The notes beneath the pieces were generated by a model. The model saw nothing but the letters and a program-made list of their open reading frames with translations, was not told the DNA's origin and did not search any database. A program made the position numbers and the translations under genes. A stretch of 32,612 nt of DNA. It comes from Tannerella sp. GTDB taxonomy: Bacteria; Bacteroidota; Bacteroidia; Bacteroidales; Tannerellaceae. Numbering within the stretch: position 1 is the stretch's first letter; each line of letters begins with the position of its first letter. Positions 13,042 to 29,696 of this stretch are shown here, one piece after another. The stretch spans positions 1 through 32,612 of the forward strand of contig JAIRMH010000166.1 of assembly GCA_031258835.1 (NCBI GenBank), in the 5' to 3' direction.

Positions 13042-13071
13042 TTTGCTTAAACGTTTTATCTATTATCTTTG
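13042..13071 (+). promoter_or_regulatory. lacI promoter with embedded operator
   Basis: A -33 TTTG (13042-13045) and a -7 TATCTTTG (13064-13071) are separated by 18 bases, a near-ideal Bacteroidetes promoter. The operator-like sequence TTGCTTAAACGTTTTA (13043-13058) fills the spacer. A repressor bound there would block the polymerase, so lacI probably controls itself. The same TTGCTTAAWCG half-site occurs at 14122-14132 (complement) and 16869-16879. Confidence 0.75.
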
Positions 13072-13099
13072 TCGCGAAATTTAATTTAATATTCAAAAA

Positions 13100-14107
13100 A
13101 TGGCTCGTGTTTCTATAAAAAGTATAGCCATGGAGTTAGGCATTTCTACGGCGACCGTGTCACTTGTTCTTAGCGGAAAAGAAAAAGTGGGGCGCGTAAG
13201 TAAAAATATGGCTGAAAAAATTCGATTGAAAGCCCGGGAAATGCATTATGAACCGAATCACCTTGCCCGTGGCTTAAGGATAGGATGTTCGCAAACCATC
13301 GGATTGATAGTGGCGGATATTTCCAATCTGTTTTTTGCGAATTTGGCTTTTCACATACAGGAGCATGCGGAAAAGTATGGATATAGCGTTATTATTACGA
13401 ATACAAACGAAAGCGACTTGAAACTGGAGAAGATGGTCAATGTTCTGAAAAGCAGACAGGTGGACGGATTTATTATTGTACCTACGGAACACGGACAGCC
13501 TTATGTCGAAGCGTTGCTAAAGCGTAATATCCCGACCGTACTGATAGACCGTAATTTTACGGAAATAAATGTCGGCGCTGTTGTTGTGGATAATTATAAT
13601 GCATCGGCAGTAGCGGTGAAAAATCTTATAAAACAAGGATGTAAAAATATCGGATTGATTGTTTATAAGAGTCGGCTGCAGCATATGCAGGAACGCATGA
13701 GAGGATATATTGATGCGGTTAAAGAACATGGATATTATAATCCGGATTTTATAAAAGAGGTCAATTACTCGCTTATTTCCAATGATATTTCTATTGCGAT
13801 AGAAAGTTTGTTGTTAAAAGAGAATAATATAGATGGTCTGTTTTTTGCTACAAATACATTATCGATGCTGGGTATCAAACAGTTGATAAATATGAACCGA
13901 CGGATTCCCGAAGATGTTAAAATAGTATGCTTTGATAAAAGCGATGCGTTTGATTTTATGAACATCCCGATTCCGTATATACGGCAACCGATACCTGAAA
14001 TGGGACGGAAAGCGGTTGAATTGTTGATTGAGCAAATAAAAGATCCCTCTGAAAATAAAAAATGCGTTGAATTGCAGGCTTCCCTTATAGACAGTCCTGT
14101 CAATTAG
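13100..14107 (+). CDS. LacI family transcriptional regulator of the sugar locus
   Basis: The 335-residue protein has an N-terminal LacI helix-turn-helix (about residues 3-24: VSIKSIAMELGISTATVSLVLSG without gaps), a hinge region with YEPNHLARGLR, and a periplasmic-binding-protein-like effector domain (QTIGLIVADISNLFFANL, DGFIIVPTEH, IPTVLIDRN, DGLFFATNTLSMLGIKQL, IRQPIPEMGRKAVELL). Family members release DNA, or bind it, on binding a sugar or sugar phosphate. It is followed 61 bases later by the FucP-type permease and precedes the whole catabolic locus, so D-arabinose, L-fucose or a derived ketose are candidate effectors. Three matching operators support local control. Confidence 0.92.
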   Translation: MARVSIKSIAMELGISTATVSLVLSGKEKVGRVSKNMAEKIRLKAREMHYEPNHLARGLRIGCSQTIGLIVADISNLFFANLAFHIQEHAEKYGYSVIITNTNESDLKLEKMVNVLKSRQVDGFIIVPTEHGQPYVEALLKRNIPTVLIDRNFTEINVGAVVVDNYNASAVAVKNLIKQGCKNIGLIVYKSRLQHMQERMRGYIDAVKEHGYYNPDFIKEVNYSLISNDISIAIESLLLKENNIDGLFFATNTLSMLGIKQLINMNRRIPEDVKIVCFDKSDAFDFMNIPIPYIRQPIPEMGRKAVELLIEQIKDPSENKKCVELQASLIDSPVN

Positions 14108-14115
14108 CTTTTTGA

Positions 14116-14132
14116 GTTAAACGATTAAGCAA
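14116..14132 (-). promoter_or_regulatory. LacI operator before the permease gene
   Basis: The complement reads TTGCTTAATCGTTTAAC, matching the lacI promoter operator in 10 of 11 bases of the half-site, with a better second half (CGTTTAA). It lies in the 61-base gap between lacI and the permease gene. No TAnnTTTG element follows it, so the permease may be read mainly from the lacI promoter. Confidence 0.6.
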
Positions 14133-14168
14133 ATGAAATGAATATATAAAAACCTTATTATTAGTATT

Positions 14169-15599
14169 ATGAGACAGAAAATTGTACCGAAAAATGCGTT
14201 ATGGCCATTTATTTTATTGACGACATTGTTTTTTGCGTGGGCGGTTCCGAATAATCTTACGGACACGATGTTGGCGGCGTTTAAGCGGATTATGAGTTTA
14301 TCAGATTCTAAAACGGCCTGGATACAGGTTGTTTGTTATTTGTTAGGATACGGTTTTTGCGCTATTCCGGGGGCGTTGTTTATTAAGAAATATACTTATA
14401 AGTCCGGCGTATTATTAGGATTAGCCTTTTATGCCGGGGGATGTTTCCTTTTTTACCCTGCCATGTTGTGTTTGCAAATTAACGCAGACATTAGTTTTGC
14501 GATGTATCTGTTTGCCATATTTATCCTGTTCGCAGGGCTTTCCGTACTCGAGACCTCGTCAAATTCTTATATCTGTGCGATCGGTTCGGAGGAAACGGCT
14601 ACCCGGCGGCTGAATCTGGCGCAGTCGTTTAACCCTTTTGGAGCAATCGGCGGTGTCGTCATAAGCCAAGTGTTTATCTTATCCCAATTAAATTTACTGA
14701 CTGCATCCGAACGGACGGCAATGCCTGCCGATGAATTGACAAAAATACAAGGATTCGAGCTGAATGCCGTAACAATGACTTATGTTATTTTGGGAGTGGT
14801 TATGGCAGTTTTATTATTAGCCATTCTATTGACGCAAATGCCGAAATTGAAAGAAGGCGACAGAAAGCCGGAATTAGTTGCAACGTTTAAAAGATTATTT
14901 AAAAATAGAAATTATGTATGGGGTGTTGTCGCCCAATTTTTTTACGTAGGCGCACAAATTGCCGTATGGTCATTTGTTATACGTTATGCAATGCAACAAT
15001 TAGACCTGGACGGCATTGTGGCATCGCTTGGGGCAAATGTACCGTCGATCGAAGTGGTAGATGCACTCCGAAATGTAGAGCCGATAGCGTCCGGTTTTTA
15101 CCGATTGTGTGAAGTGGCGGGATTAAACGATTTGTTACCTCGTACGGCAGAGCAGGCCGGTGCGACATATTATATAATATCGCTGATATTATTTGTTTTG
15201 ATGCGTTTTGCCTGTACCGGGTTGATGAAGTATATAAAGCCGTATAAAATATTAACGATCCTGGCATTAGCGGCTGTGGCGTGCTGCCTTGTAACCATCT
15301 ATGGAAAAGGGGCTGTAGGCGTATATTCGCTGATGTTTATTTCGGGGTGTATGTCGCTGATGTTTCCTACTATTTACGGGATAGGTGTACGCGGACTTGG
15401 CGAAGATACGAAAATTGGAGGTGCGGGTATGGTAATGGCTATTGCAGGAGCAGCGGTTTTGACGCAGATACAGGGAATTGTATCGGATTCCTCAAGTATA
15501 GGACTGGCATATTGGGTTCCTGCCGTTGCATTCGGCATAATAGCATATTACAGCATAGTTATCTGTGGTAAAGCAGAAAGAAAAGAAAATATCCGATGA
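14169..15599 (+). CDS. fucP: FucP-type sugar:proton symporter (MFS, FHS family)
   Basis: The 476-residue membrane protein has about twelve hydrophobic segments and signature motifs of the fucose/galactose/hexose symporter family. These are NNLTDTMLAAFKR in the first loop and LETSSNSYICAIGSEE followed by NLAQSFNPFGAIGG in the middle of the N-terminal half. E. coli FucP imports L-fucose and also D-arabinose and L-galactose with protons. Here it would carry the monosaccharide released in the periplasm across the inner membrane to FucI. It sits 61 bases after lacI and 95 before the GH172 gene. The substrate is inferred from neighbours; a plain fucose role cannot be excluded. Confidence 0.88.
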   Translation: MRQKIVPKNALWPFILLTTLFFAWAVPNNLTDTMLAAFKRIMSLSDSKTAWIQVVCYLLGYGFCAIPGALFIKKYTYKSGVLLGLAFYAGGCFLFYPAMLCLQINADISFAMYLFAIFILFAGLSVLETSSNSYICAIGSEETATRRLNLAQSFNPFGAIGGVVISQVFILSQLNLLTASERTAMPADELTKIQGFELNAVTMTYVILGVVMAVLLLAILLTQMPKLKEGDRKPELVATFKRLFKNRNYVWGVVAQFFYVGAQIAVWSFVIRYAMQQLDLDGIVASLGANVPSIEVVDALRNVEPIASGFYRLCEVAGLNDLLPRTAEQAGATYYIISLILFVLMRFACTGLMKYIKPYKILTILALAAVACCLVTIYGKGAVGVYSLMFISGCMSLMFPTIYGIGVRGLGEDTKIGGAGMVMAIAGAAVLTQIQGIVSDSSSIGLAYWVPAVAFGIIAYYSIVICGKAERKENIR

Positions 15600-15694
15600 G
15601 TGAAACAACTGTAAGGATGAATTCTCCGCGAATTTTTGAATGAAAGCAAATTGAGTTATATATTGTATTTATTAATTTATAAAACCGCGAACAA

Positions 15695-16855
15695 ATGAAA
15701 AAAATTTTATTGACAATCGTAGCGTTAACCGCAGCGTTAACGGTATTTTCCCAGAAGTATCCATATGATGGTCTTGATAATAACATGGGAAATCTATTTC
15801 GGCTATCAAATGCAAAAACCCGTTCCATCAGTCCTGAAAATTTCACGGGAGAAAAAGGAAAAGGAGGTATAGCCGATATTAAGGATCGGGATAAGCGGAA
15901 TGTTGCGAACGCATCGAACGCCGCGCGTGATCTGGGACAGGGCTGGAAGGTGAATCCGTATATCCGGATTGAATCTAAGGAGACGTTTACTATCGCAGAA
16001 ATAGAGGGGCCGGGAGCCATTCAGCATATCTGGATGACGCCGACAGGAAATTGGCGTTTTACGATTCTGCGTATTTATTGGGATGACGAAAAAGAACCTT
16101 CGGTAGAATGTCCGGTCGGCGACTTTTTCGGTATGGGATGGGGCACCTATGCCCCGTTGTCGTCGTTGGCCGTGTGCGTGAATCCTGGTAGTGCATTCAA
16201 TTGCTATTGGACGATGCCTTTCCGTAAAAAGTGCAAGATCACAATGGAAAACGTAAATGACCAGGACGCCATGACTTTATACTATCAGATTGATTATACC
16301 CTGACGGAAGTCCCGGAAGACGCAGCCTATTTTCATGCTCAATGGAGAAGGACGAATCCAAACCTGACCTCCGATTACACTATTATAGATGATGTGAAAG
16401 GAAAAGGACATTATGTGGGCGTTTATATGGCATGGGGCGTCCATAATAACGGATGGTGGGGCGAAGGGGAAATCAAATTCTTCATGGACGGAGATGCCAA
16501 ATTCCCTACTATCTGCGGTACCGGTACGGAAGATTATTTCTGCGGCTCGTATAATTTTGATCGCGAAGGACAATATAAGGAATTTTGCACTCCTTACGCG
16601 GGCCTGCATCAGGTCATACGTCCGGATGGCACGTATCGTTCGCAACAACGTTTCGGATTGTATCGCTGGCACATTAACGACCCGGTACGTTTTGAAAAAG
16701 ACTTGCGGATAACGATTCAAGATTTGGGTTGGAGGCACGGAGGCCGCTATCTGCCGCAGCAATCCGATATATCGTCCGTGACCTACTGGTATCAGACGGA
16801 GCCTCATCACACGTTTCCGAAACTTCCTTCGTGGGAAGGATTAGAAGTGAATTAA
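15695..16855 (+). CDS. GH172 family furanosidase (DUF2961)
   Basis: The 386-residue protein has a cleavable signal peptide (MKKILLTIVALTAALTVFSQ) and no lipobox, so it is probably periplasmic. It matches DUF2961/GH172: the LSNAKTRSISPENFTGEKG start, GPGAIQHIWMT, PVGDFFGMGWG, YYQIDY, and the core GEGEIKFFMDGD and GTGTEDYF motifs. Glu257/Glu259 and Glu279 are spaced like the nucleophile and acid/base glutamates of characterised GH172 enzymes. Known activities are alpha-D-fructofuranosidase/difructose anhydride synthase and exo-alpha-D-arabinofuranosidase. With GH116, FucI and FucP beside it, I favour alpha-D-arabinofuranosidase, as inference. Confidence 0.9.
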   Translation: MKKILLTIVALTAALTVFSQKYPYDGLDNNMGNLFRLSNAKTRSISPENFTGEKGKGGIADIKDRDKRNVANASNAARDLGQGWKVNPYIRIESKETFTIAEIEGPGAIQHIWMTPTGNWRFTILRIYWDDEKEPSVECPVGDFFGMGWGTYAPLSSLAVCVNPGSAFNCYWTMPFRKKCKITMENVNDQDAMTLYYQIDYTLTEVPEDAAYFHAQWRRTNPNLTSDYTIIDDVKGKGHYVGVYMAWGVHNNGWWGEGEIKFFMDGDAKFPTICGTGTEDYFCGSYNFDREGQYKEFCTPYAGLHQVIRPDGTYRSQQRFGLYRWHINDPVRFEKDLRITIQDLGWRHGGRYLPQQSDISSVTYWYQTEPHHTFPKLPSWEGLEVN

Positions 16856-16868
16856 TTGTTTTTAGTCG

Positions 16869-16884
16869 TTGCTTAAACGAATTA
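16869..16884 (+). promoter_or_regulatory. LacI operator before the GH116 gene
   Basis: TTGCTTAAACGAATTA repeats the 11-base half-site TTGCTTAAACG of the lacI promoter exactly. It lies in the 66-base gap between the GH172 and GH116 genes. An imperfect -7 (TAGGACTTTG, extra bases in the spacer) follows, so an internal promoter is possible but not clear. Confidence 0.6.
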
Positions 16885-16921
16885 TTTAATAGAGAAATGT
16901 AGGACTTTGAATCATGTATAG

Positions 16922-19471
16922 ATGAAACGATGCATTTATTTTATTGCAGTAGCGATTATGCTGTTTGCCTGTAACTTAGAAAGGCAAACAGGAGACAAAA
17001 GGGAATTTAATGCGAAATATGAAGGGGCTTTCATAAACAGGATTGCTTTTCCGATTGGTGGCTTGGGGACGGGAATGTTTTGCGTAGAGGGTACGGGCGC
17101 TATATCCAATATGTCTTTGCGTCATCGTCCGGAAGTGTTCCACGAACCGGCTATGTTTGCCGCTTTGCATCTGAAAAATATTGAAAACGGAACGAAAGTT
17201 CTTGAAGGGCCTGTACCTGACTGGAAAAAATTCGGAATGCCTAATTCCGCATTAGGAGGAGGAGGGACATGGGGACTTCCGAGGTTTAAGGAATCTACCT
17301 TTCATGCACGCTTCCCGTTTGCAGAAATAGAACTGAACGATCCGGCGTTACCGGTAAAGGTTAAAATTACTGCATGGAATCCTTTTATCCCGACAGACGC
17401 CGATGACTCAAGTCTGCCGGTCGGAGGATTCGAATATCAATTTACAAATACGGGTAATGACGAGCTGGAAGCTATATTTTCTTATAACACCCGCAATTTC
17501 ATGTATGTTCAAGGCAAAGGAGATTCTTATATCCGTTCTTTTGAGAATGGCTTTGTTCTTTGTCAGACCGGACAGGAAAACGAACCTTTTCATGAAGGAG
17601 AGTTTGCCGTATTTACGGATCAGCCGGAGACGGTTGTAAATCATAATTGGTTCAGGGGTGGCTGGTTTGATCCGCTTACTATCTGTTGGAACAACATAAG
17701 TAGTGGAGTGATGGAGACGAATAAGGAAAAGGAACCCGGAGCTCCTGGCGCATCGTTATTTGTTCCGATAAAGATAAAACCGGGAGAAACGCAATTAGTA
17801 AAATTGTATATGTCATGGTATGTTCCTTATTCGCATCTGCGGATAGGGGGCGACCCCGGTAACGATTCGGATCTTCCCGGCGTCCCGACGCTTGTTAACA
17901 ACACGGATTATGACAATACGGGTAGCGGTAATTACAAGCCATGGTATAGCAGTAAATTCGGTAGCGTAGACGATGTCGCCGCATATTGGGTTCGTAATTA
18001 TTGCGGTTTGAAAAGCAAAACGCAATTATTCACAAACTCTTTTTATAGCAGCACATTGCCGGCAGAAGTACTGGAAGCTGTCGCCGCTAATCTTACCATA
18101 TTAAAATCGCCGACCGTGTTCAGGCAGTTTGACGGAAGAATGTGGAATTGGGAAGGATGCGGGGATACATGGGGATCTTGCCATGGTTCTTGCACGCATG
18201 TATGGAATTATGCGCAAGCTGTACCTCATTTATTCCCTGGTATGGAAAGGACGTTGCGTGAAACGGAGTTTTTTGTAAGCCAGGATAAAAGGGGACATCA
18301 AGCATTTCGCACGAATCTTCCGATACGTCCGGTTGTCCACAATTTTCATTCAGCTGCTGACGGGCAATTAGGCGGTATCATGAAAGTGTACCGCGAATGG
18401 AGGATATATGGAAACAGCGAATGGCTAAAGGATATTTATCCGGCAGTGAAGCAGAGCATGGATTATTGCATCGGCGTTTGGGATCCGGATAGGACAGGCG
18501 CCGTTGAAGAACCGCATCATAATACGTATGATATTGAATTTTGGGGACCTAACGGGATGATTAACAGTTTTTACTCCGGGGCATTGCAGGCTGTGTGCCT
18601 GATGGGGAAAGCTTTGGGCGAGGATGTCGCCGGATATGAGGCGTTGTTATCCGGAAGCAAGGAATATATGGAGACACGGCTGTTTGACGGAGAATATTTT
18701 ATTCAGGATATACGATGGAAAGATCTGAAAGCCCCGGATCCGACAAAAGCCCAGTCTTTCCATACTCAATATTCTCAGGAGGCGGTTGAAATATTGGAAA
18801 AAGAAGGTCCTAAATATCAATATGGAACAGGCTGTTTGTCCGATGGCGTTTTAGGCTCGTGGATGTCTCTGGTCTGCTGTATGCCTGAAGTGATCGATAA
18901 AGAAAAGATAAAGAGACATTTGACGTCCGTCCATAAATATAATCTCAAAAAGGATCTGAGTAATCATGCAAATCCGCAACGTCCTACTTTTGCATTAGGA
19001 AATGACGGTGGACTGCTATTATGCACGTGGCCTAAAGGCGGTAAACTTCAGTTGCCGTTTGTCTATAGCAATGAAGTATGGACGGGCATTGAGTATCAGG
19101 TAGCATCTCATTTGATGTTTGAAGGTGAAGTGGAGAAAGGGTTGGAGATTGTCCGCACTTGCCGCAGAAGATATGACGGTAGAGTAAGAAATCCGTTTAA
19201 TGAATATGAATGTGGAGCCTGGTACGCGAGGGCTATGGCCAGTTACGCTTTATTAGAGGGGCTGACAGGCGTTCGTTACGACGCGGTAGACGGTATATTA
19301 TATGTCAATTCCCGAATAGGGGATGATTTTACCTCTTTTCTCTCTACGGATACAGGATTCGGCAACGTCGGATTGACGAATGGAAAGCCGTTTATCGATG
19401 TAAAATATGGTTCCATAGACGTGAAAAAATGTATCGTGTCAGGTGTGGAAGTGGCTTTATTAAATAAATAA
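16922..19471 (+). CDS. GH116 family glycoside hydrolase lipoprotein
   Basis: The 849-residue protein has a lipoprotein signal with lipobox LFACN. It carries the two GH116 parts: the N-terminal beta-sandwich (IAFPIGGLGTGMFCVEGTGAIS region, about 35-330) and the C-terminal (alpha/alpha)6 barrel formerly called DUF608 (about 385-830: CTHVWNYAQAVPHLFPGMER, NTYDIEFWGPNG, NEVWTGIEYQVASHL). Candidate catalytic residues are Glu411 (MWNWEGC) and Asp537 (NTYD), placed roughly like those of the GBA2-related bacterial enzyme. GH116 covers beta-glucosidase, beta-xylosidase, beta-N-acetylglucosaminidase and an exo-beta-D-arabinofuranosidase. Next to a GH172 the last is the most attractive, but substrate cannot be read directly. 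Confidence 0.88.
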   Translation: MKRCIYFIAVAIMLFACNLERQTGDKREFNAKYEGAFINRIAFPIGGLGTGMFCVEGTGAISNMSLRHRPEVFHEPAMFAALHLKNIENGTKVLEGPVPDWKKFGMPNSALGGGGTWGLPRFKESTFHARFPFAEIELNDPALPVKVKITAWNPFIPTDADDSSLPVGGFEYQFTNTGNDELEAIFSYNTRNFMYVQGKGDSYIRSFENGFVLCQTGQENEPFHEGEFAVFTDQPETVVNHNWFRGGWFDPLTICWNNISSGVMETNKEKEPGAPGASLFVPIKIKPGETQLVKLYMSWYVPYSHLRIGGDPGNDSDLPGVPTLVNNTDYDNTGSGNYKPWYSSKFGSVDDVAAYWVRNYCGLKSKTQLFTNSFYSSTLPAEVLEAVAANLTILKSPTVFRQFDGRMWNWEGCGDTWGSCHGSCTHVWNYAQAVPHLFPGMERTLRETEFFVSQDKRGHQAFRTNLPIRPVVHNFHSAADGQLGGIMKVYREWRIYGNSEWLKDIYPAVKQSMDYCIGVWDPDRTGAVEEPHHNTYDIEFWGPNGMINSFYSGALQAVCLMGKALGEDVAGYEALLSGSKEYMETRLFDGEYFIQDIRWKDLKAPDPTKAQSFHTQYSQEAVEILEKEGPKYQYGTGCLSDGVLGSWMSLVCCMPEVIDKEKIKRHLTSVHKYNLKKDLSNHANPQRPTFALGNDGGLLLCTWPKGGKLQLPFVYSNEVWTGIEYQVASHLMFEGEVEKGLEIVRTCRRRYDGRVRNPFNEYECGAWYARAMASYALLEGLTGVRYDAVDGILYVNSRIGDDFTSFLSTDTGFGNVGLTNGKPFIDVKYGSIDVKKCIVSGVEVALLNK

Positions 19472-19484
19472 AATAATATGCACA

Positions 19485-20726
19485 ATGGAGAAAATGAATT
19501 ATCAGGTATTGCTTTTGATGTGTACAATACTTTTTTCCTGTAACGGAAAAGTTAAAAAACAAACGAATATGAATGAATTGCAAAAAGGAACGTTTCGTTA
19601 TGATTTGAATTATTTATCCGGTAAGGACGACAAGCTAACCGTACTTTCCGGGAATGAGGGGAGATCGCAAATTATTGTTTCGCCTAAATATCAAGCGAAG
19701 GTTTTTACTGCCACAGCGGAGGGGCTGTCTGGCAAAAGCCTTGGATTTATCAATTATCGGGTGTTGGATTCCGATGTGATTGATGAACACATGAATGGTT
19801 ATGGCGGTGAAAATCGTTTCTGGTTAGGCCCCGAAGGAGGAACCTATTCCATCTTTTTTGAACGGGGGAAGACGCAGGTATATGATAACTGGCATACACC
19901 CAAACCTATTGATATTGAGACTTGGGAAATCACTTCGGCGAACAGTAAAAAAGTAACTTTCAAAAAAGAGATGGAAGTGATCAATTACCTCGGAAATCTA
20001 TTGGCGTTGCGTGCGGAAAGGACGGTATCTCTTCTTGAGGAAGCGGAAATTCAATCGGCTTTAGGCATTGAAATACCCCGCGGGGTAAATACGGTGGCCT
20101 ATGCGACGGACAACAGGATCGTGAACCTTGACGATTTCGAGTGGACGGCGGAAACCGGAACGATCTGTATCTGGATACTCGACATGTTTCATACTTCGCC
20201 CGAAGCGTGTACGGTCGTCCCTTTTTATGACGGCAACGCTACGGATCTGGGTAAGATCGTTACTTCCGACTATTTCGGGGAAATACCTTCTGACCGGTTG
20301 AAGATAAAAGATAACGTCATATATCTTAAAACGGACGGGAAATACCGCAGCAAATTGGGACTGAACGGCAAACGTACGACCGCCATAGCCGGCAATTATG
20401 ACCCTGTTTCGGGCCGTCTTACCGTTATTACTTATGATGTCGACCGGGAAGCGGTTTATTTAAATCAGGAATGGGATCCGGCAAAAGATCCGTTAAAAGG
20501 CGACGCGATGAACGCGTATAACGACGGCCCGCTGGAAGACGGAAGTATCATGGGGCCTTTTCTTGAGATCGAAAGCGTTTCCCCTGCCGCATTCCTGAAG
20601 CCGACGACCTCTATGTCGCATAAGCATACGGTTTATCATTTTATCGGAGAAGAAAAAGATCTGAATCCGATTATCGGAAAATTGTTTGGCATATCCGCGA
20701 GTGAGATAAGAACAGTTTTTCAGTAA
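19485..20726 (+). CDS. Uncharacterised PUL lipoprotein (DUF6786-like)
   Basis: This 413-residue protein has a signal peptide with lipobox LFSCN and begins 13 bases after the GH116 gene. The body is rich in beta strands with motifs such as YGGENRFWLGPEGGTYSIFF and a conserved-looking C-terminal segment (PFLEIESVSPA, SHKHTVYHFIGEE). From memory it fits the DUF6786 family; no catalytic activity is established for it as far as I know. The strand pattern and WLGPEGG motif recall galactose-mutarotase-like sandwiches, so a mutarotase, lyase or sugar-binding role is possible. Its place between GH116 and fucI ties it to the same substrate. Start could also be the ATG at 19494. Confidence 0.75.
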   Translation: MEKMNYQVLLLMCTILFSCNGKVKKQTNMNELQKGTFRYDLNYLSGKDDKLTVLSGNEGRSQIIVSPKYQAKVFTATAEGLSGKSLGFINYRVLDSDVIDEHMNGYGGENRFWLGPEGGTYSIFFERGKTQVYDNWHTPKPIDIETWEITSANSKKVTFKKEMEVINYLGNLLALRAERTVSLLEEAEIQSALGIEIPRGVNTVAYATDNRIVNLDDFEWTAETGTICIWILDMFHTSPEACTVVPFYDGNATDLGKIVTSDYFGEIPSDRLKIKDNVIYLKTDGKYRSKLGLNGKRTTAIAGNYDPVSGRLTVITYDVDREAVYLNQEWDPAKDPLKGDAMNAYNDGPLEDGSIMGPFLEIESVSPAAFLKPTTSMSHKHTVYHFIGEEKDLNPIIGKLFGISASEIRTVFQ

Positions 20727-20753
20727 GTTTTTACACGAAATACAGAAATATAT

Positions 20754-22532
20754 ATGATTAAAAAGAATTATCCGAGAATTGGTATCCGGCCGATAATTGA
20801 CGGTCGAAGGAAGGGTATCCGGGAATCGTTGGAAGAGGCGACGATGAATATGGCGCTTAACGTGGCGGAATTATATCGCAAATCGCTGTGTTACCCGGAC
20901 GGCTCTGCGGTTGAATGTATGATTGCCGATAGTTGTATCGGTGGAGTAAAGGAAGCGGCCGACTGTGCAGCGAAATTTGAGAGTGAGAATGTTGGTCTGA
21001 CGTTGTCGGTGACGCCTTGCTGGTGTTACGGTTCGGAAACGATCGATATGAATCCCGGAATACCGAAAGCTATTTGGGGCTTTAACGGGACGGAACGCCC
21101 CGGCGCCGTCTATTTATCTGCCGCACTGGCGGCTCATAACCAGTTTGGCCTGCCGGCATTTGGGATATATGGACGCGATGTTCAGGATATGGGAGAGATG
21201 TATATTCCACTTGATGTGCGGGAAAAGCTCTTACGGTTTGCCCGTGCGGGTTTGGCGGTAGCATTAATGCGCGGGCGGTCGTACCTGGCGATTGGGTCGG
21301 TTTCGATGGGGATCGCCGGGTCGATTGTGAACCCGGATTTTTTGAGGGAATATTTGGGTATGAGAACCGAATATGTAGACTGTTCGGAGATACTGCGTCG
21401 CATTCAACAGGGAATATATGACAGGGAAGAGTTTGAGAAAGCGATGGAGTGGACACGGAGGGAATGCATGGTAAATGAAGGGGAAGATTTTAATAAGGAA
21501 GTCATTCGCCGGACACGTAAGCAGAAGGATGAAGATTGGGTGTTTGTCGTGAAGATGACGCTTATCATGCGCGACCTCATGATTGGGAATGAGAAGTTAC
21601 GGGAAATGGGTTTTGGCGAAGAGGCAAACGGCCATAATGCCATTGCCGGCGGATTTCAGGGGCAGCGTCAGTGGACGGATTTTCTTCCTGACGGAGACTT
21701 CTCGGAAGCGGTGTTAAATTCTTCTTTTGATTGGAATGGTGTGCGTGAACCGTTTGTTGTCGCCACGGAGGATGATCATTTAAACGGGATAAGTATGCTG
21801 TTTGGTAAATTGCTTACCAATACGTCCCAGATGTTCGCCGATGTACGTACGTATTGGAGTCCCGGCGCTATCGAACGAGTAACGGGGTGGAAGCCGGACG
21901 GTATCCTGAAAGATGGAGCGATACACTTGATAAATTCCGGTTCGTGTACCTTGGATGGCACAGGGGAACAATCTGATGAAAACGGTTGTCCTGTGATAAA
22001 ACCGTTCTGGGAGATTCGGCAGGGAGAAATTGATAAAATGTTGACTGCGACGACTTGGTATCCTGCAAACTTGGAATATATGAGGGGCGGCGGTTATTCG
22101 TCGAAGTTCCTTACATGCGAAGGTATGCCGACGACGATGTGCCGACTTAATATCATCAGAGGTTTAGGCCCTGTTCTACAAATTGCCGAAGGCTGGACGG
22201 CGCGTTTTCCCGAACATGTGTTTGCGACGATTGATAAACGTACGGATAAAACATGGCCATCCACGTTTTTTGTTCCCCGCATTACAGGGAAGGGGCGTTT
22301 TAAAGATGTTTATTCGGTAATGAATTATTGGGGTTCCAATCACGGCGCAATAAGTTTTGGACATATAGGTGCGGATTTGATATCGCTTGCATCTATGCTA
22401 TCCATACCTGTCTGTATGCATAATGTTGATGAAGAAGACATTTTCCGTCCGTCTGCATGGGTAGCCCACGGTTCTGATCCGGAATATTCCGATTACAGAG
22501 CTTGTGCAACTTATGGGCCGTTGTACAAGTAA
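20754..22532 (+). CDS. fucI: L-fucose / D-arabinose isomerase
   Basis: The 592-residue cytoplasmic enzyme aligns along its whole length with E. coli FucI (591 residues): [90 protein letters not shown] and the end [12 protein letters not shown]. Active-site residues are present at Glu339 and Asp363 (E. coli Glu337 and Asp361), with the conserved His in NYWGSNHG. FucI converts L-fucose to L-fuculose and D-arabinose to D-ribulose, with Mn. No kinase or aldolase for the next steps lies in the window. It is the last gene of the enzyme run, before a hairpin. Confidence 0.95.
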
Positions 22533-22553
22533 AGTATTGGCGATTGGGAAAAA

Positions 22554-22602
22554 CCGATAAAAGGAGGCGTTATTTTGGAAGGTCATGCCTCCTTGTTATC
22601 GG
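22554..22602 (+). terminator. Terminator after fucI
   Basis: Arms 22554-22568 and 22587-22602 (AAGGAGGC / GCCTCCTT core, extended by CCGATAA / TTATCGG) form a stem of about 15 bp with one bulge and an 18-base loop. It lies 22 bases after the fucI stop and separates the enzyme genes from susC. Confidence 0.65.
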
Positions 22603-22647
22603 TCAAAGAAAAGAAAATTGGTCAAAAAGCCGGATTCTGATAGTGAC

Positions 22648-22681
22648 AAACATTCGCTGTAAATATTTTTACAGCGTGTTT
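22648..22681. promoter_or_regulatory. Hairpin in the susC leader region
   Basis: A perfect 9-bp stem (CGCTGTAAA / TTTACAGCG, loop TATT) at 22655-22676 is extended by CAAAC / GTTTG across a small internal loop. It lies about 140 bases before susC. It may be a second stop, an operator or an RNA leader structure. No TAnnTTTG promoter could be placed with confidence in 22603-22819. Confidence 0.5.
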
Positions 22682-22819
22682 GACTGTAATAACGGCCATT
22701 GGCGCAATCGTATAAAAATTTGTCATGCAGAAGAAAAAATATTTTTTTCCTTTATGCATGCTGCAAAGTTACTTAAATAATAGAATTAAAAATGTGTAGG
22801 GATAAAAAAAATTTTTATT

Positions 22820-25800
22820 ATGAAAAAATGTTTGAGTAAATATTTGAATAGAAGCAGAAAAATTATTCTGAAAACGACGTTTATAATGTTGTTTACATTA
22901 TGCCTTAACGTCGCGTATGCAGATAATGGTTTTCACGGAGTAGCTCAGGAAAAGACGATTACAGGCGTCGTTTCCGAAGCCGGCGGAGAAACCCTTTCCG
23001 GCGTGAGCGTTTTCGTAAAAGGAACAACCGCAGGTACGATTACGAATGTTAACGGGGAATATTCAATATCGGCGAATAGCAATTCGATATTAGTATTTTC
23101 GTATATAGGTAAGAAAACGGTCGAGATTGCGGTTGGTAATAAAACACTCCTGTCCGTTGTAATGGAAGATGATGTTTTTATATTAGAGGACGTCGTTGTA
23201 CAAACCGGATATATGACCCAGAAAAAGGCCGACTTGACAGGCGCTTTGGCATTAGCCGGTTCGGAAGACCTGAAGCAGAATCCGACCGCGAATGCAATGA
23301 AAGCGTTACAGGGGAAATTGCCCGGCGTATTTATTACCTCCAATGGAAATCCGGCAGAAGACGTGGGGATACAGATCAGAGGTATAACCTCAATCAATTC
23401 GGCCAGTCCCCTGATAATTGTCGACGGACTTCCTGCCAACATTAACCTGCGCGACCTGAATACGTTTGATATAGAAACAATCCAGGTGTTGAAGGATGCG
23501 GCATCCGCAAGTATTTACGGTTCGCGTGCAGCAAGCGGAGTGATAATAATTGAAACAAAAAAGGGAAAAAGAGGAGAAACGAGGGTGAGTTATGACGGTT
23601 CTGTTGGTTTTTCGTGGCTTACATCTGCTCCCGACATGTTGAATACCGAGCAATATGGGCGCGGTTTATGGCAGGCGAATGTAAATGACGGGAATGATCC
23701 GAGCTCTACGGTTCGCATTTATGAATATGACTGGAATTATGGTTCAAATGGTTATCCGGTATTAAATTCCTTCCAACCCGTGGAATGGTTGAACAGTGCA
23801 CATACTATGCGTTCTGCGGATACAAAATGGTTTGATGAAATAACGCAAACAGGCGTTCGACAAAATCATCAGGTAACGGTATCTAACGGCAACGATAAGT
23901 CGCGAACTATGTTTTCTCTAAACTGCTATGATAACAAAGGAACGCAGATTGATACTTATTTCAAACGTTATTCAATACGGTTAAATTCCGATTATGACCT
24001 CATTAAAAACCGCCTGAAAATAGGAGAGAACATGGCTATTTCCTATCTTGACTATTTGTCCGGTAATGAAATGTATAATTCCTTAATTATGCCAAGTATC
24101 GTACCGGTTTATACAACAGACGGCGGATGGGGTGGAAGCGCTATGGAATTAGGTATGGACGACTATTGGAACCCTGTCAGAATCTTATCCATGAATAAAG
24201 AAAACAGCAATAAATTCATGAAAGCGATCGGAAGCGCTTACTTAGACTTATCGGTTATGAAAGGATTAAAACTGAAAACGCAATTCGGCGTCGACTATTC
24301 AAACTCATACTGGAGGCATGTAGATTATACTTGGGTTGAAGGAGGAGGTAAATTTGATAATGAAGGCGGAGTTGAAAATGATCAGAATCATACCGTAACG
24401 TATACGTGGACGAATACGATGAATTATAGCCTTAAAAAAGGAAAACACCATCTTGACGCAGTTGCCGGGACGGAGTTTATTCACTACTTGAATGAAGGGT
24501 TTAATGCTTACGGAGATGAAATACTCCTTTATGACAGAGATTACGCATTGCTATCAAGAACGACAGGAACGACGAGGAGAAAAATAAGCGGATGGTTCGA
24601 CGAATGGGCTTTATTTTCTTATTTTGCCAAAGCCAACTATGTATTTGATGATAAATACCTGTTGTCGGCAACTGTTCGTTATGACGGGTCTTCAAAATTC
24701 GGCGCCAATAACCGCTGGGGGCTTTTCCCTGCTTTTTCTGCCGGATGGAGGTTAAGTGAAGAAACATTTATGAAAGACATGGATGTCCTTTCGAATCTGA
24801 AACTCAGAGCAAGCTGGGGGCAAAACGGCAATTCCAATATTCCCTCAAATGCACTCCAGAATATTTATTACGCCAATTATGCGGATTTTACTATTCGAAC
24901 GTCTTATGCCATACAGGGACAGGAAACAGGAGAACTTCCCTCTGGGTATTATCGTGACCGCTTAGGCAATCCCGATTTGAAATGGGAAGCTACCGAGCAA
25001 ACAAACATAGGCGTAGATTTTGGTTTCTTTAATCAAAGAATTAACGGATCGATAGATTATTTTTATAAGGAAACGGAAGGCATGTTGTATGAACCTCCCT
25101 ATATCGGAGCCTTTGGCGAAGGAGGATATCAATACATCAATGCCGCCGGCATGAATAACAGAGGATTGGAGTTTATCATAAATTATCGGAATAAAAGAAC
25201 ATCGGAATTACAGTATTCCGTTACGGCTAATTTTTCTACTTTCAAGCATAAGATGGTTGACGTACCGGAACATGCGCTTCAATCGTACGGGGGTAACGGA
25301 ATGTTGGATAATATCATCGGACGTCCGATGAACTCTCATTACGGATTTATAGCCGACGGAATATTTAAAACGCAGGAAGAGGTCGACAATTCTCCACAGC
25401 AGGAAGGGAAAGGGATTGGCCGTATACGTTACAGGGATCTTGACGGAGATGGAGTTATTAGCGACAATTATGACAGGACGTGGATTGGCATCTCTGATCC
25501 GGACTTCATTGCAGGACTTAATTTCAGCGGAGGATATCGGGGGTTTGATTTGACGCTATTCTTTCAGGGCGTGTTTGGTAACGAAATTTACAATGAATGG
25601 AAAGTTTACAGTGATTTCTGGAATATTACGGAACAGGCGGGAAAAAATCATCAGACACGCATAACGGATGCGTGGACTCCTTCCACCCCGGATGCGGATA
25701 TACCGGCGTTATCGACCCAGAACGCCAATAATGAGCGCAGAATGTCAACCTATTTCATTGAAGACGGTTCCTATCTGAAACTGCGGACAGCCGAACTGGG

Positions 25801-25993
25801 ATATACCTTGCCGCAGAAGATCTCAGATAAAATATATATGAGTAATTTGCGGGTATATGCCTCGGCACAGAATATTTTTACAATGAAAGCATGGTGGTCC
25901 GACAATAAATTTACAGGGCCTGATCCCGAACATAATAATTTTGCTTACCTCATACCCTTTACATTAACTTTTGGCATTAATATATCATTCTAA
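22820..25993 (+). CDS. SusC/RagA family TonB-dependent outer membrane transporter
   Basis: The 1057-residue protein has a long signal peptide, then a carboxypeptidase-D-like domain (about 44-117: ITGVVSEAGGETLSGVSVFV, NVNGEYSI), a TonB-box-like EDVVVQTG, the plug with LQGKLPGVFI, IRGITSINSASPLIIVDGLP, VLKDAASASIYGSRAASGVI, and a large beta-barrel ending in an aromatic-terminated strand (TFGINISF). With SusD it forms the outer-membrane complex that imports oligosaccharides using TonB energy. It is 13 bases upstream of susD. Together with the upstream enzymes it makes this a PUL, with the unusual order of enzymes first and SusCD last. Confidence 0.95.
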   Translation: MKKCLSKYLNRSRKIILKTTFIMLFTLCLNVAYADNGFHGVAQEKTITGVVSEAGGETLSGVSVFVKGTTAGTITNVNGEYSISANSNSILVFSYIGKKTVEIAVGNKTLLSVVMEDDVFILEDVVVQTGYMTQKKADLTGALALAGSEDLKQNPTANAMKALQGKLPGVFITSNGNPAEDVGIQIRGITSINSASPLIIVDGLPANINLRDLNTFDIETIQVLKDAASASIYGSRAASGVIIIETKKGKRGETRVSYDGSVGFSWLTSAPDMLNTEQYGRGLWQANVNDGNDPSSTVRIYEYDWNYGSNGYPVLNSFQPVEWLNSAHTMRSADTKWFDEITQTGVRQNHQVTVSNGNDKSRTMFSLNCYDNKGTQIDTYFKRYSIRLNSDYDLIKNRLKIGENMAISYLDYLSGNEMYNSLIMPSIVPVYTTDGGWGGSAMELGMDDYWNPVRILSMNKENSNKFMKAIGSAYLDLSVMKGLKLKTQFGVDYSNSYWRHVDYTWVEGGGKFDNEGGVENDQNHTVTYTWTNTMNYSLKKGKHHLDAVAGTEFIHYLNEGFNAYGDEILLYDRDYALLSRTTGTTRRKISGWFDEWALFSYFAKANYVFDDKYLLSATVRYDGSSKFGANNRWGLFPAFSAGWRLSEETFMKDMDVLSNLKLRASWGQNGNSNIPSNALQNIYYANYADFTIRTSYAIQGQETGELPSGYYRDRLGNPDLKWEATEQTNIGVDFGFFNQRINGSIDYFYKETEGMLYEPPYIGAFGEGGYQYINAAGMNNRGLEFIINYRNKRTSELQYSVTANFSTFKHKMVDVPEHALQSYGGNGMLDNIIGRPMNSHYGFIADGIFKTQEEVDNSPQQEGKGIGRIRYRDLDGDGVISDNYDRTWIGISDPDFIAGLNFSGGYRGFDLTLFFQGVFGNEIYNEWKVYSDFWNITEQAGKNHQTRITDAWTPSTPDADIPALSTQNANNERRMSTYFIEDGSYLKLRTAELGYTLPQKISDKIYMSNLRVYASAQNIFTMKAWWSDNKFTGPDPEHNNFAYLIPFTLTFGINISF

Positions 25994-26005
25994 ACAACCC
26001 TTATT

Positions 26006-27754
26006 ATGAAAAATATTTATAAACTATTTATAGCCGTTATATGTGTAATATTGACAGGGTGTAACGGTTATCTGGAGATAAATCCCAAAGGAGCGATAGC
26101 GGACGGATTAATAACCGGTAATTCCGAATTGGTGGATGGCTTTGTGACGGCAGCTTACGCGTATGTGCCGAATCTGGGATATGCAGAGTCGCACAATCCA
26201 TGGATGCATGGATCGATACGTTCGGACGATACGTACAAAGGAGGCGGGGGCATTTCCGACCAATTGCCATGGCATGAATTTGAAACGTTTGCCGCCGTTA
26301 CCGCCAATACAGGTAATAATGACGGCCCGTGGTACCGGGGATATTGTGCTGTTTCACGGTGTAATACGGCCATTAACCTCCTTCGGGGATTAGAACTTTC
26401 CGAAATGCCTGAACGTGATATACGTATTGCGGAGATGAGGTTCCTGCGCGGGGCTGTTTATTTTAACATGAAACTTTTCTGGAGATATATCCCGTGGATA
26501 GGCGATGAAATTTCAAATAACATGGAAGAAGTCTTAGCCACCCCTAATGTTCCGGAAGATGGTGAAATGTCTTTATGGAAGAATATTCTTGACGATTTCG
26601 AATATGCTGCACAAAACCTGGAGATAACGCCAAAGGACAAAGGCCGCATAACCAGGATCGCCGCCAAAGCAATGGCAGCAAAGACCTTGCTTTTTATGGC
26701 TTACGAACAGGATGACAGACATCAGTTTACTTCCTTAAACCGGCAGAGACTTGAAAATGCATTACAGTATCTGAATGAAATAACGGCGATGGAAGGCGAT
26801 GTGGTGACCCTTTGCGAAGATTTTGCCGATAATTTCCTGCCCGAATATGATAATGCTACGAAAGAATCCATCTGGGAAGTTCAATACTCCATTGCTGACG
26901 GCACAAACAACGGCGGACGTATCAACTGGGGCGACGAACTGAACGCACCGTGGTGGGTGCCTCATTTCAGTTGTTGCGATTTCCACAAAGTAAGTTTCAA
27001 TCTGGCAAACGCATTTAGGACAGATGTAAACGGTCTGCCGTTGTTTGATACTTTCAACGAAGCGGAACTGAAAAACAATTACAGCGACTATTTCAACAGG
27101 AATACATTTGATCCGCGTTTTAGTCACACGGTAGCAGTTCCGGGACATCCGTTTAAATACGACGCTACCTTGCCATATGATTCGACAGGTTCGCGCGACC
27201 CTGCTATTTACGGCTATATGAATTCTTTGAAAGAACAGGTGCATCCCGATTGCGACTGCGTTTTAAAACCTTTCTACGTGCAGAACTCTATGAATAAACG
27301 CAACATCCGTTATGCGGAAGTTCTGTTGTGGAAAGCGGAAGTGCTCATACAACTGGATCGTTATCAGGAAGCCTTGCCGATCATAAACAAAATAAGGAAA
27401 AGGGCATCGGAAAGTATGGCTCGCCTGAAATGGGATGATGGCGCTCCTGTCTTGAACTATAAAATAAGTTTGTATGAAGACGGTATTAACTGTACATGGA
27501 CGAAAGACTTCGCATGGAAAGTCCTTCAATGGGAAAATCGTCTTGAAACGGCATGCGAAGGACGTCGCTTCTTCGACCTTTTACGATGGGGAGCGCTTGA
27601 GAAGACGATGAATGACTATTTTGCAAAAGAAAGAACCAGATATAACTGGATGAACAATGCCCATTTTTCAGCCGGACGCGATGAATACAAACCCATTCCT
27701 CAGGCGCAAATAAACTGGTCGAAAGGGTTATATAAACAAAATCCGGGATATTGA
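26006..27754 (+). CDS. SusD/RagB family nutrient-binding outer membrane lipoprotein
   Basis: The 582-residue protein has a lipobox (LTGCNGYLEINPKG), the standard SusD start. Features of the TPR-containing SusD fold follow: RFLRGAVYFNMKLFWRYIP, RITRIAAKAMAAKTLLFMA, NIRYAEVLLWKAEVLIQL, ALPIINKIRKRA, EGRRFFDLLRWG and the C-terminal PIPQAQINWSKGLYKQNPGY. It is surface exposed, caps the SusC barrel and binds glycan. Ligand cannot be told from sequence. It is separated from susC by 12 bases; the following small lipoprotein gene begins 32 bases downstream. Confidence 0.95.
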   Translation: MKNIYKLFIAVICVILTGCNGYLEINPKGAIADGLITGNSELVDGFVTAAYAYVPNLGYAESHNPWMHGSIRSDDTYKGGGGISDQLPWHEFETFAAVTANTGNNDGPWYRGYCAVSRCNTAINLLRGLELSEMPERDIRIAEMRFLRGAVYFNMKLFWRYIPWIGDEISNNMEEVLATPNVPEDGEMSLWKNILDDFEYAAQNLEITPKDKGRITRIAAKAMAAKTLLFMAYEQDDRHQFTSLNRQRLENALQYLNEITAMEGDVVTLCEDFADNFLPEYDNATKESIWEVQYSIADGTNNGGRINWGDELNAPWWVPHFSCCDFHKVSFNLANAFRTDVNGLPLFDTFNEAELKNNYSDYFNRNTFDPRFSHTVAVPGHPFKYDATLPYDSTGSRDPAIYGYMNSLKEQVHPDCDCVLKPFYVQNSMNKRNIRYAEVLLWKAEVLIQLDRYQEALPIINKIRKRASESMARLKWDDGAPVLNYKISLYEDGINCTWTKDFAWKVLQWENRLETACEGRRFFDLLRWGALEKTMNDYFAKERTRYNWMNNAHFSAGRDEYKPIPQAQINWSKGLYKQNPGY

Positions 27755-27786
27755 TTTTAATTGAATTATTTATATATAATGTACTT

Positions 27787-28221
27787 ATGAAAAAATTAGA
27801 AAATATATTTGTCGCAATAGCAACGGTATTGATCTATACTTCTTGCTACGACAGAGAAATAGTATCGTCGAAAGAAGGTGTAAGTTTACCGCCCGCGACG
27901 AATTTAAGCCATATTATTTCCGGCAACAAAATAACTTTGACATGGCAAATACCATCAGGTATCCCCTCGGAAATGAACCGGCCTTTAGGCGTTAATATTC
28001 AGATATTGCGCTGTCTGCAAGGATCTCTGACGAATGTCAGGATCTTTAATTCGACGTTTCAGAACGAACCGACAGAAGTAATCTTAGATATGCCGTCAAA
28101 TCCCGACGGCGGGATATATGAATATCATATTGTCGTAAAACTGACAGGTACGATGAAAGAACCTGAATATGGCCATTCCGGGACGATTTATTCGTTAGGC
28201 CGGACGGTAGTTGTTAAATAA
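27787..28221 (+). CDS. Small PUL lipoprotein (DUF4945-like)
   Basis: The 144-residue protein starts at the ATG at 27787, which gives a normal signal peptide and lipobox (IYTSCYDRE); the frame is open up to the susD stop, but that extension is not signal-like. It has one fibronectin-III-like beta sandwich (SLPPATNLSHIISGNKITLTWQIP, then IYEYHIVVKLTG, RTVVVK). It resembles small proteins found after susCD genes (DUF4945, from memory). It may be an accessory surface glycan-binding protein; no function is proven. A hairpin follows it. Confidence 0.7.
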   Translation: MKKLENIFVAIATVLIYTSCYDREIVSSKEGVSLPPATNLSHIISGNKITLTWQIPSGIPSEMNRPLGVNIQILRCLQGSLTNVRIFNSTFQNEPTEVILDMPSNPDGGIYEYHIVVKLTGTMKEPEYGHSGTIYSLGRTVVVK

Positions 28222-28228
28222 ATTCCAA

Positions 28229-28262
28229 GCGACGTCGTCACATTCAATGCGTGCGGCGTCGC
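28229..28262 (+). terminator. Hairpin after the susCD genes
   Basis: Arms GCGACGTCGT (28229-28238) and GCGGCGTCGC (28253-28262) pair over 10 bp with two G-U pairs, seven bases after the stop of the last PUL gene. No T-run follows. It probably ends the susCD transcript. Confidence 0.55.
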
Positions 28263-28387
28263 TAAACTTCCGGACAGGTCTGAAGATTCTATTGAAACAG
28301 TTGAACCCTGGTATGAGAAAAAATCCATAGTCCCCCATTGATGATATGCCGCCAAAGTATATTCCTGACTGCAAGACGATTATGTTA

Positions 28388-28406
28388 ATTGGCCGGCCAA
28401 GTTGGG
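28388..28406. promoter_or_regulatory. 19-bp element with 12-bp palindrome, right copy
   Basis: ATTGGCCGGCCAAGTTGGG is the exact reverse complement of 1493-1511 and shares the palindrome TTGGCCGGCCAA. Here it lies 17 bases before the conserved promoter block of the restriction-modification locus. Confidence 0.5.
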
Positions 28407-28422
28407 TTATGTATTTTATCGA

Positions 28423-28459
28423 TCTGTGTGTAATGTCGAAAATTTCATATACATTTGCA
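28423..28459 (+). promoter_or_regulatory. Conserved promoter (P4) of the restriction-modification remnant
   Basis: The 37-base block is 35/37 identical to P1 (1612-1648) and contains the -7 element TACATTTG at 28450-28457. The first ATG of the downstream frame is only 4 bases after the -7, so the message would be leaderless or the start lies elsewhere. Confidence 0.65.
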
Positions 28460-28461
28460 GC

Positions 28462-28693
28462 ATGGATACAATAAACAACCATCATCAGCCATTATCGAAA
28501 ATATTTGGATTTCCGATTCAAAATCAATCGGACAGAGCCATGCGTTATCTGAAAAATAAGCTTTGCCCGTTCAATAATATTGTGTCCAGCTGCACTAAAA
28601 ACAGCATCGGACTATCTTTCTTCGTCAAGGAAAAGATTGTTGGACTCCAAACGACCGGATATAGATAATTTTGAAAATATTGTAGTAGAATGA
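28462..28693 (+). pseudogene. Internally deleted NotI-family restriction endonuclease remnant
   Basis: The frame from 28462 encodes 68 residues beginning like NotI-family endonucleases: LSKIFGFPIQNQSDRAM, then KLCPFNNIVSSCTK, matching the family's conserved CPF motif and iron-binding-type cysteines (family recalled, not searched). After CTK the sequence loses similarity and stops at 28668. In the +1 frame a different segment (from about 28595: LKTASDYLSSSRKRLLDSKR, then PDIDNFENIVVE) ends with TGA at 28691-28693, overlapping the methylase ATG as ATGA. This looks like the true C-terminus of the endonuclease. A full enzyme is around 300 residues, so most of the middle is gone and the gene is dead. 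Confidence 0.6.
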
Positions 28694-29691: not shown

Positions 29692-29696
29692 TAGCC

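Follow-up and report, generated by a model that had tools for sequence, protein, structure and literature searches.

A Candidate D-Arabinan Locus

A 32,612-nt contig (C300) of a Tannerella sp. metagenome-assembled genome (MAG), analysed in its entirety and referred to below as the window, carries a nine-gene locus that very probably allows a Bacteroidales bacterium to trim off D-arabinose units of arabinan in the cell walls of other bacteria, as a similar cluster has been shown to do in Dysgonomonas gadei. A probability of roughly 0.85 is assigned to this reading, which was drawn from protein families, active-site residues, gene order, related loci, and further loci in the same genome. The genes, LacI-FucP-GH172-GH116-DUF6786-FucI-SusC-SusD-DUF4945, are all open, occupy the + strand from 13100 to 28221, and bring together GH172, GH116, FucI, and SusC/SusD, as the D-arabinan type of polysaccharide utilization locus (PUL) requires. 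An earlier sequence-only reading had listed the same genes, in this order and all rightward, and had proposed D-arabinan as the substrate; open frames and family scores, each above the curated Pfam or NCBIfam score, confirmed the list, and the proposal was supported, sequence-based refutation tests on GH172 and GH116 having failed to refute it.

The genes of the locus are as follows:

13100-14107, + strand: LacI-family regulator, probable local regulator (Pfam LacI and Peripla_BP_3)
14169-15599, + strand: FucP-type major facilitator superfamily (MFS) sugar:H+ symporter, proposed D-arabinose importer (TIGR00885, 391 bits; cut-off 280.4)
15695-16855, + strand: GH172 (DUF2961), predicted periplasmic exo-alpha-D-arabinofuranosidase (PF11175, 344 bits; ExoMA1 match; Asn287)
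16922-19471, + strand: GH116 with lipobox-like LFAC, predicted exo-beta-D-arabinofuranosidase (PF04685/PF12215; ExoMA2 the best solved match; active-site residues)
19485-20726, + strand: DUF6786 with lipobox-like LFSC (PF20583, 502 bits; no credible match in the Protein Data Bank, PDB)
20754-22532, + strand: FucI, cytoplasmic D-arabinose/L-fucose isomerase (TIGR01089, 1012 bits; PRK10991, 1037 bits; Pfam Fucose_iso N1, N2, and C)
22820-25993, + strand: SusC-type TonB-dependent outer-membrane importer (TIGR04056, 873 bits)
26006-27754, + strand: SusD-type surface glycan-binding lipoprotein (PF07980, 114 bits)
27751-28221, + strand: small DUF4945 protein, candidate accessory lipoprotein of the surface (PF16303, 98.6 bits)

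The intergenic distances in gene order are 61, 95, 66, 13, 27, 287, 12, and -4 bp, the largest preceding SusC. Export starts and lipoboxes were judged by eye and by pattern, not by a signal-peptide program; lipobox-like motifs were found in GH116, DUF6786, and SusD, and the start of GH172 is signal-like without a lipobox. The motif IYTSC was seen by eye in DUF4945, yet the lipobox pattern search gave no match. Absences in the window were assessed by submitting 23 of its 60 mechanically called open reading frames (ORFs), long and mostly non-overlapping, to Pfam. The source MAG is fragmented (354 contigs, 86% complete, 4.9% contamination). Relatives were taken from an even sample of the order (295 genomes) and from a named-genome scan with DUF6786, from which the best 80 of 580 relatives were used; D. 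gadei is not among these 80.

The Two Predicted Exo-Acting Hydrolases

The PF11175 model covers the GH172 domain end to end (1-235 of 235). Among solved structures, the window GH172 best matched the exo-alpha-D-arabinofuranosidase ExoMA1 (8ic8) with 404 bits, followed by the alpha-fructofuranosidase alphaFFase1 (7v1v, 160 bits), 4kq7 (146 bits), and DgGH172c (8ah3, 135 bits). By alignment, Asn287 corresponds to the specificity residue Asn253 of ExoMA1. The available text of PMC10509167 reports that Asn253 bars fructose and that its counterpart in alphaFFase1 is Gly299. An alpha-D-fructofuranoside locus, with GH172 acting on difructose anhydride or inulobiose-type substrates in the manner of alphaFFase1, is therefore highly improbable. 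It draws on the membership of alphaFFase1 in GH172 and on the 160-bit match; it is opposed by Asn, rather than Gly, where the residue is reported to keep fructose out, and by the much greater closeness of the enzyme to ExoMA1, so that the comparison with fructofuranosidases suggested by the sequence-only reading turned out in favour of the arabinofuranosidase side. In addition, FucI is not needed for fructose, and no fructokinase was found in the 23 scanned ORFs.

The column of Asn287 was tabulated from an alignment in which 139 hits were reduced to 89 rows, including five typed or window rows, by dropping proteins of at least 460 aa, short matches, and near-copies. In the 67 rows with at least 50% identity, the window and ExoMA1 not counted, the column holds Asn in 35, Asp in 22, Gly in nine, and Cys in one; the available text of the cited papers made no mention of the Asp form. 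FucI, FucP, or GH116 lay near, versus not near, the GH172 gene in 30 versus six Asn rows, 15 versus seven Asp rows, two versus seven Gly rows, and zero versus one Cys row (at least 50% identity; the window counted, ExoMA1 not), a tally that is not leaned on, since the loci were drawn through two different searches (DUF6786 or GH172) and the sampling is thus biased.

The GH116 protein contains the Pfam domains Glyco_hydr_116N and DUF608. Its best solved match was the exo-beta-D-arabinofuranosidase ExoMA2 (8ic6, 352 bits), and the next was a glucosylceramidase (9wiz, 51 bits). Residues E411, H426, R463, and D537 correspond to E431, H446, R483, and D557 of ExoMA2, comprising the nucleophile, the acid/base, and two distinguishing residues, in a comparison of these four active-site positions. 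His446 and Arg483 of ExoMA2 stand where a beta-glucosidase has Asp452 and His507, and were singled out as differing (PMC10509167, available text). Judged from these sequence comparisons, the window GH116 belongs to the ExoMA2 type (subfamily 4), and its exact substrate would be terminal beta-D-arabinofuranose. The beta-D-arabinofuranosidase role proposed for GH116 in the sequence-only reading is supported by score and by the four residues; the tree described below places it no nearer to ExoMA2 than other Bacteroidota clades.

Isomerase, Transporter, and Kinases

The best solved match of FucI was a D-arabinose isomerase (3a9r, 905 bits); L-fucose isomerases reached at most 855 bits. FucI and FucP use L-fucose in well-studied bacteria, and the names of the NCBIfam models say L-fucose. 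The locus might then serve L-fucose, with FucP and FucI handling L-fucose freed by enzymes encoded elsewhere, and with GH172 and GH116 acting on different sugars of that glycan. A locus of genome G262 (L144), in which DUF6786 occurs with FucI, a GH95-like protein, GH29, and a FucP-like protein, also speaks for this alternative, which is nonetheless considered improbable on four grounds.

Pfam matches to fucosidases, FGGY kinases, class II aldolases, or DUF4185 were absent from the 23 scanned ORFs, so that the earlier statement that the window lacks fucosidase, fuculokinase, and fuculose aldolase holds for these ORFs. A separate FucP (38% identity) and FucI (66%) are encoded on contig C201, about 5-6 kb from a GH29 fucosidase, with genes for ribosomal protein S2 and EF-Ts in between; this pair is the likelier L-fucose system of the genome. 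None of the four FGGY kinases of the genome scored above the fuculokinase cut-off. One, on contig C194, reached 695 bits with the ribulokinase model NF003154 (cut-off 428), compared to 572 bits with TIGR01234 (cut-off 583) and 50 bits with the L-fuculokinase model (cut-off 471); it lies beside another FucI and is a candidate for the D-ribulokinase that the sequence-only reading had thought worth seeking elsewhere in the genome. The other three resemble a ribulokinase next to L-arabinose isomerase, a rhamnulokinase (below cut-off) next to rhamnose isomerase, and a glycerol kinase. On contig C10 (L268, 4802-7738), a glycerol-kinase-like FGGY gene precedes one whose product has the C-terminal domain of fucose isomerases (PF02952, 122 bits; weak sulfoquinovose-isomerase match).

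The fourth ground is the FucI tree. Its 39 rows comprise 26 from GH172/GH116 loci or from the second and third loci of the window genome (see below), just two from fucosidase loci, and 11 from neither. The GH172/GH116 group forms one side of a branch with a support of 90 (not starred; 8 of 500 shuffles were as low), the window FucI groups with those of loci L174, L175, and C154 at 100, and the C201 FucI of the same genome falls outside. The sampling favours such a grouping, most rows having entered by way of the DUF6786 search; matches shorter than 450 aa were dropped, and the labels of L162, L258, and L267 were assigned by hand.

The LacI-family protein scored best with an RbsR-like NCBIfam model (193 bits, under the cut-off of 382). 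It is 81% identical to its counterpart in L175, and FucP is 76% identical to that of L175 and 80% to that of L176.

The Endo-Enzyme and Other Loci of the Same Genome

The sequence-only reading had reported no GH183 endo-enzyme in the window, and this was borne out both by the Pfam scan and by a tblastn search for remnants with three GH183 proteins, in which nothing in the window was better than E 0.89. In loci L174, L175, and C154, GH183 or its N-terminus lies directly 3′ of DUF4945. The corresponding features of the window are as follows:

28222-29562, no strand assigned: site where the nearest related loci hold GH183; a stretch with no long + strand gene, followed by the D12-class methyltransferase
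28690-29562, + strand: D12-class DNA adenine methyltransferase (Pfam MethyltransfD12)

Elsewhere in the genome, where the sequence-only reading had advised looking, GH183 was found: the single DUF4185/GH183 profile match is on contig C190 (316 bits), and a GH183-like N-terminus is on C154. The ends of contigs C20 and C190 are identical over 23 bp, within a GH116 gene, and those of C190 and C194 over 119 bp, within a GH43 gene. Together, the three contigs form a second locus encoding GH172, GH116, DUF6786, SusC, SusD, an FG-GAP protein, GH183, a longer GH172 (GH172b), GH43, FucI, and the FGGY kinase described above; identities to the window are 91% for GH172, 67% and 83% for the two parts of GH116, 65% for DUF6786, and 79% for FucI. 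Part of a third locus on C154 encodes FucI (87% over the available part), SusC (54%), SusD (52%), DUF4945 (35%), and, running into the contig end, the N-terminal 103 residues of a protein matching the beginning of the L174 GH183 at 65%. Because this contig ends ahead of the DUF4185 domain, the third locus would be GH183-bearing by inference.

Other contigs hold further relatives of the two hydrolase families. On C24 (L019, 2-13994), two DUF2961 proteins of about 700 aa flank a GxGYxYP putative glycoside hydrolase, and next come a 1067-aa ORF, SusD, and an M14 peptidase; this is a different PUL with GH172-like enzymes. Another DUF2961 PUL, on C333 (L018, 899-10426), encodes a 541-aa DUF2961 protein, a 1058-aa ORF of SusC size, SusD, DUF4959/DUF5126, and DUF4998. 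On C151 (L020, 5849-9090), GH30 adjoins a protein of 605 aa whose catalytic domain is GH116-like/rhamnosidase-like.

Related Loci and Their Distribution

The closest of the 80 loci from the named-genome scan were found in Tannerella sp. Ct408_bin163 (L175) and Porphyromonadaceae UBA8128 (L174). L175 has the gene order of the window followed by GH183, with an extra GH172 (31%) ahead of FucI; L174 begins at a contig start, keeps the window order from GH172 on, and has GH183 after DUF4945. In these two loci, identities to the window are 84-86% for GH116, 87-89% for GH172, 86-89% for FucI, and 74-76% for DUF6786. A more distant locus, on contig 33 of genome G230 (L161 and L162; same order), matches LacI (50%), FucP (65%), GH172 (78%), GH116 (66% in the catalytic part, 48% in the N part), DUF6786 (60%), FucI (78%), SusC (51%), SusD (48%), and DUF4945 (35%). 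Its genes run in another sequence: ribulokinase, FucP, DUF6786, GH172s, GH116, GH183, DUF4945, SusD, SusC, GH172, FucI, and LacI. Compared to the window, it additionally holds GH183, further GH172s, a weakly GH88-like protein (707 aa, L161 6887-9007), and the FGGY ribulokinase. Between its GH116 and GH183 lies a gene for a 370-aa protein that matched no Pfam family (L161 15225-16334). DUF4945 adjoins SusD in G230, C154, L174, and L175, as in the window. In G230, GH183 is separated from DUF4945 by a DDE transposase (L161 17907-19148), and such an insertion is a possible route to separation or loss of the endo-enzyme.

Within the 295-genome sample, DUF6786 was matched in 21 genomes, DUF4185 in 20 (nine over the cut-off), GH116 in 25, and GH172 in 48. 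DUF4185 scored over the cut-off in 10 of 33 genomes behind the related loci (13 of 33 with any match), versus 9 of 295 in the even sample; the 33 are the searchable ones of 34 genomes chosen from the 80 loci, and four were known beforehand to have a GH183-like gene in the locus, so that 10 of 33 leans upward.

D-arabinofuranose might also come from a source that is not of the mycobacterial type, such as pilin or lipopolysaccharide glycans or short D-arabinofuranosyl oligosaccharides, with GH116 removing a different terminal sugar. The window is without an endo-enzyme, and 13 of the 80 DUF6786 loci, for example in Niabella and Sphingobacterium, combine GH172, FucI, and a FucP-like protein with neither GH116 nor GH183 in the flanks. 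Short Pseudomonas pili glycans have served as a GH172 substrate (PMC10115798, available text). Against this stands the presence of GH183 in the genome and in the two nearest loci, and such a source is regarded as rather unlikely, compared to cell-wall arabinan.

Several observations weigh against the cell-wall D-arabinan reading. The locus lacks the GH183 (DUF4185) endo-D-arabinanase, unlike PUL42 of D. gadei. The residue at position 287 differs among GH172 relatives (Asn, Asp, Gly). Flanks fetched in the 295-genome sample showed that close GH172s (64-85% identical to that of the window) also occur alone, without the other hydrolases of the locus, FucI, FucP, or DUF6786, an 85% match in G105, of the same family as the window, being one example; with many close GH172s lacking partners, GH172 by itself is no marker of an arabinan locus. 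All four GH116 residues (EHRD) are kept in 57 of 58 rows, the window and ExoMA2 included, and thus mark the GH116 subfamily, not the clade of the window; proteins under 600 aa and identical ones were dropped, and the 58 rows still hold the second copies L082/L161 and L084/L173. In a quick tree of 54 rows, from which four more, among them the C20 GH116, had been removed, and which holds no characterised beta-glucosidase, ExoMA2 sits on a long branch amid several Bacteroidota clades and is no nearer to that of the window than to the rest. Other Bacteroidota GH116 clades match ExoMA2 equally well or better, with summed blast scores of 454 bits for L087 and 385 bits for the window GH116. None of the three other genomes of the same family in the sample matched DUF6786, GH116, or DUF4185/GH183, indicating that the locus is patchy. 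Lastly, the loci may come from more than one organism, given the contamination of the MAG and the differences in GC content (0.472 for C20/C190, 0.477 for C24, 0.458 for C154, 0.457 for C194, and 0.450 for C201, versus 0.428 for the window).

DUF6786

The gene that the sequence-only reading had called an unknown lipoprotein encodes DUF6786, a family rich in invariant residues. A phmmer search of the PDB gave four weak matches only (E 0.58 and worse), and a profile search gave none. With Pfam at E up to 10, 11 families besides DUF6786 were matched, each by one or two of 47 DUF6786 members. Two folds were considered by hhalign and rejected. A mutarotase fold was not shown (0.5% probability against 24 aldose epimerases; E 0.13, 293 columns), and DUF4380, the best match, was far too low (4.4% against three proteins; E 0.009, 39 columns); seven unrelated controls gave 0.1-1.3% probability, with E values of 0.04-0.5. 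No mention of DUF6786 was found in the literature searched.

Among the 80 loci, FucI was present in 34 (one at only 22% identity), and FucI or a FucP-like protein in 57, as judged by tblastn; many FucP-like matches are only 25-36% identical and could be other MFS carriers. GH172 of at least 50% identity was present in 49, GH116 of any identity in 26, and a GH183-like protein in four (one at 24%). In these counts, which were summed by hand, loci cut by contig ends were scored as lacking a gene. The occurrence of DUF6786 beside FucI or FucP in both GH172 loci and fucosidase loci points to a task on the shared sugar rather than on one linkage. L-fucose and D-arabinose have the same ring stereochemistry. 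One tentative and rather doubtful suggestion is that DUF6786 is an exported enzyme that readies free sugar for uptake, in the simplest form acting at FucP on D-arabinose and L-fucose, either as a mutarotase or as a helper of furanose-to-pyranose conversion. It would then be a general FucI/FucP partner in Bacteroidota, connecting arabinan loci with fucose loci. DUF6786 is the single unexplained, strongly conserved piece of the locus.

A Proposed Pathway

From these features, we infer a substrate, a direction of transport, a mode of regulation, a periplasmic placing of the exo-enzymes, and a role for DUF6786. SusC and SusD, with DUF4945, would bind and import fragments of D-arabinan, from actinobacterial arabinogalactan or lipoarabinomannan, or its oligosaccharides. 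In the periplasm, GH172 would take off terminal alpha-D-arabinofuranose and GH116 terminal beta-D-arabinofuranose. DUF6786 might then act on the free sugar at the FucP step, before D-arabinose enters the cytoplasm through FucP and is converted by FucI to D-ribulose. The ribulokinase encoded beside another FucI in the genome could yield D-ribulose-5-phosphate for the pentose phosphate pathway, and LacI may sense the sugar. The endo-cut by GH183 would come from the other related loci of the genome or from neighbours; with GH183 supplied elsewhere, the window copy looks specialised for the exo-trimming half.

Flanking Regions

The left flank is chiefly housekeeping (exonuclease VII, IspD, RecG, SAH hydrolase, and an inositol phosphatase family protein), and includes a PD-(D/E)XK nuclease-family transposase gene at 8250-9173. 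The right flank (28222-32612) also encodes DUF1573 and DUF5128 beta-propeller proteins and is low in GC (0.368 for 28301-32612, compared to 0.433 for the locus).

Implications and Comparison with Known D-Arabinan Systems

If the D-arabinan reading is correct, some Bacteroidales feed on D-arabinan from the walls of actinobacteria, with maybe up to three loci per genome, with and without the endo-enzyme. The reading also bears on GH116 annotation, and would offer further enzyme sources for the analysis of mycobacterial cell walls. A survey of termite-gut carbohydrate-active enzymes (CAZymes) counted GH116 of Dysgonomonadaceae, Tannerellaceae, and others as acting on cellodextrins (PMC11481507, available text), and Md513_bin60 is a MAG from the termite Mastotermes darwiniensis (PMC12483993, available text). 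The Md513 codes of L176 and L181 indicate that these are probably termite-gut MAGs. Other codes among the listed loci are presumably of the same kind. The GH116s of L176 and L181 keep the residues of the arabinofuranosidase subfamily and adjoin DUF6786 with FucP, GH172, or FucI, which suggests, at the level of sequence, that at least part of the termite-gut GH116s act on D-arabinan instead of cellodextrins. No study on D-arabinofuranosyl in termites was found, by title, in the literature searched.

Two D-arabinan systems have been described, and no other study of a D-arabinan cluster was found, judged by title, in the literature searched. According to the available text of PMC10115798, PUL42 proteins are abundant in D. 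gadei grown on D-arabinan, a predicted fucose isomerase being the most abundant CAZyme; the three GH172s of PUL42 show D-arabinofuranosidase activity on arabinogalactan, and its DUF4185 protein is the endo-enzyme. PMC10509167, in the text available, reports that the GH116 enzyme ExoMA2 cleaves beta-D-arabinofuranose, and that the GH116 of the D. gadei cluster (HMPREF9455_02468) is numbered next to DgGH172a (HMPREF9455_02467). The novelty of the locus is therefore lower than the sequence-only reading had implied, although its proposal stands: this set of genes was already described for D. gadei (PMC10115798 and PMC10509167, available text).

The Microbacterium arabinogalactanolyticum cluster (EndoMA1/2, ExoMA1, and ExoMA2; PMC10509167, available text) shares with the window the logic of GH172, GH116, isomerase, and kinase. 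It is actinobacterial, with an ABC importer and intracellular exo-enzymes, whereas the window has SusC/SusD and FucP and exo-enzymes with export-like starts. PUL42 of D. gadei ATCC BAA-286, compared through the available descriptions in the papers and by alignment of DgGH172c only, shares GH172, GH116, and FucI. PUL42 has two more GH172s and DUF4185/GH183, whereas the window, with a single GH172, lacks GH183, those functions being encoded in the other loci of the genome. As the combination of GH172, GH116, GH183, and FucI is already in print for PUL42, the window adds a member to this type.

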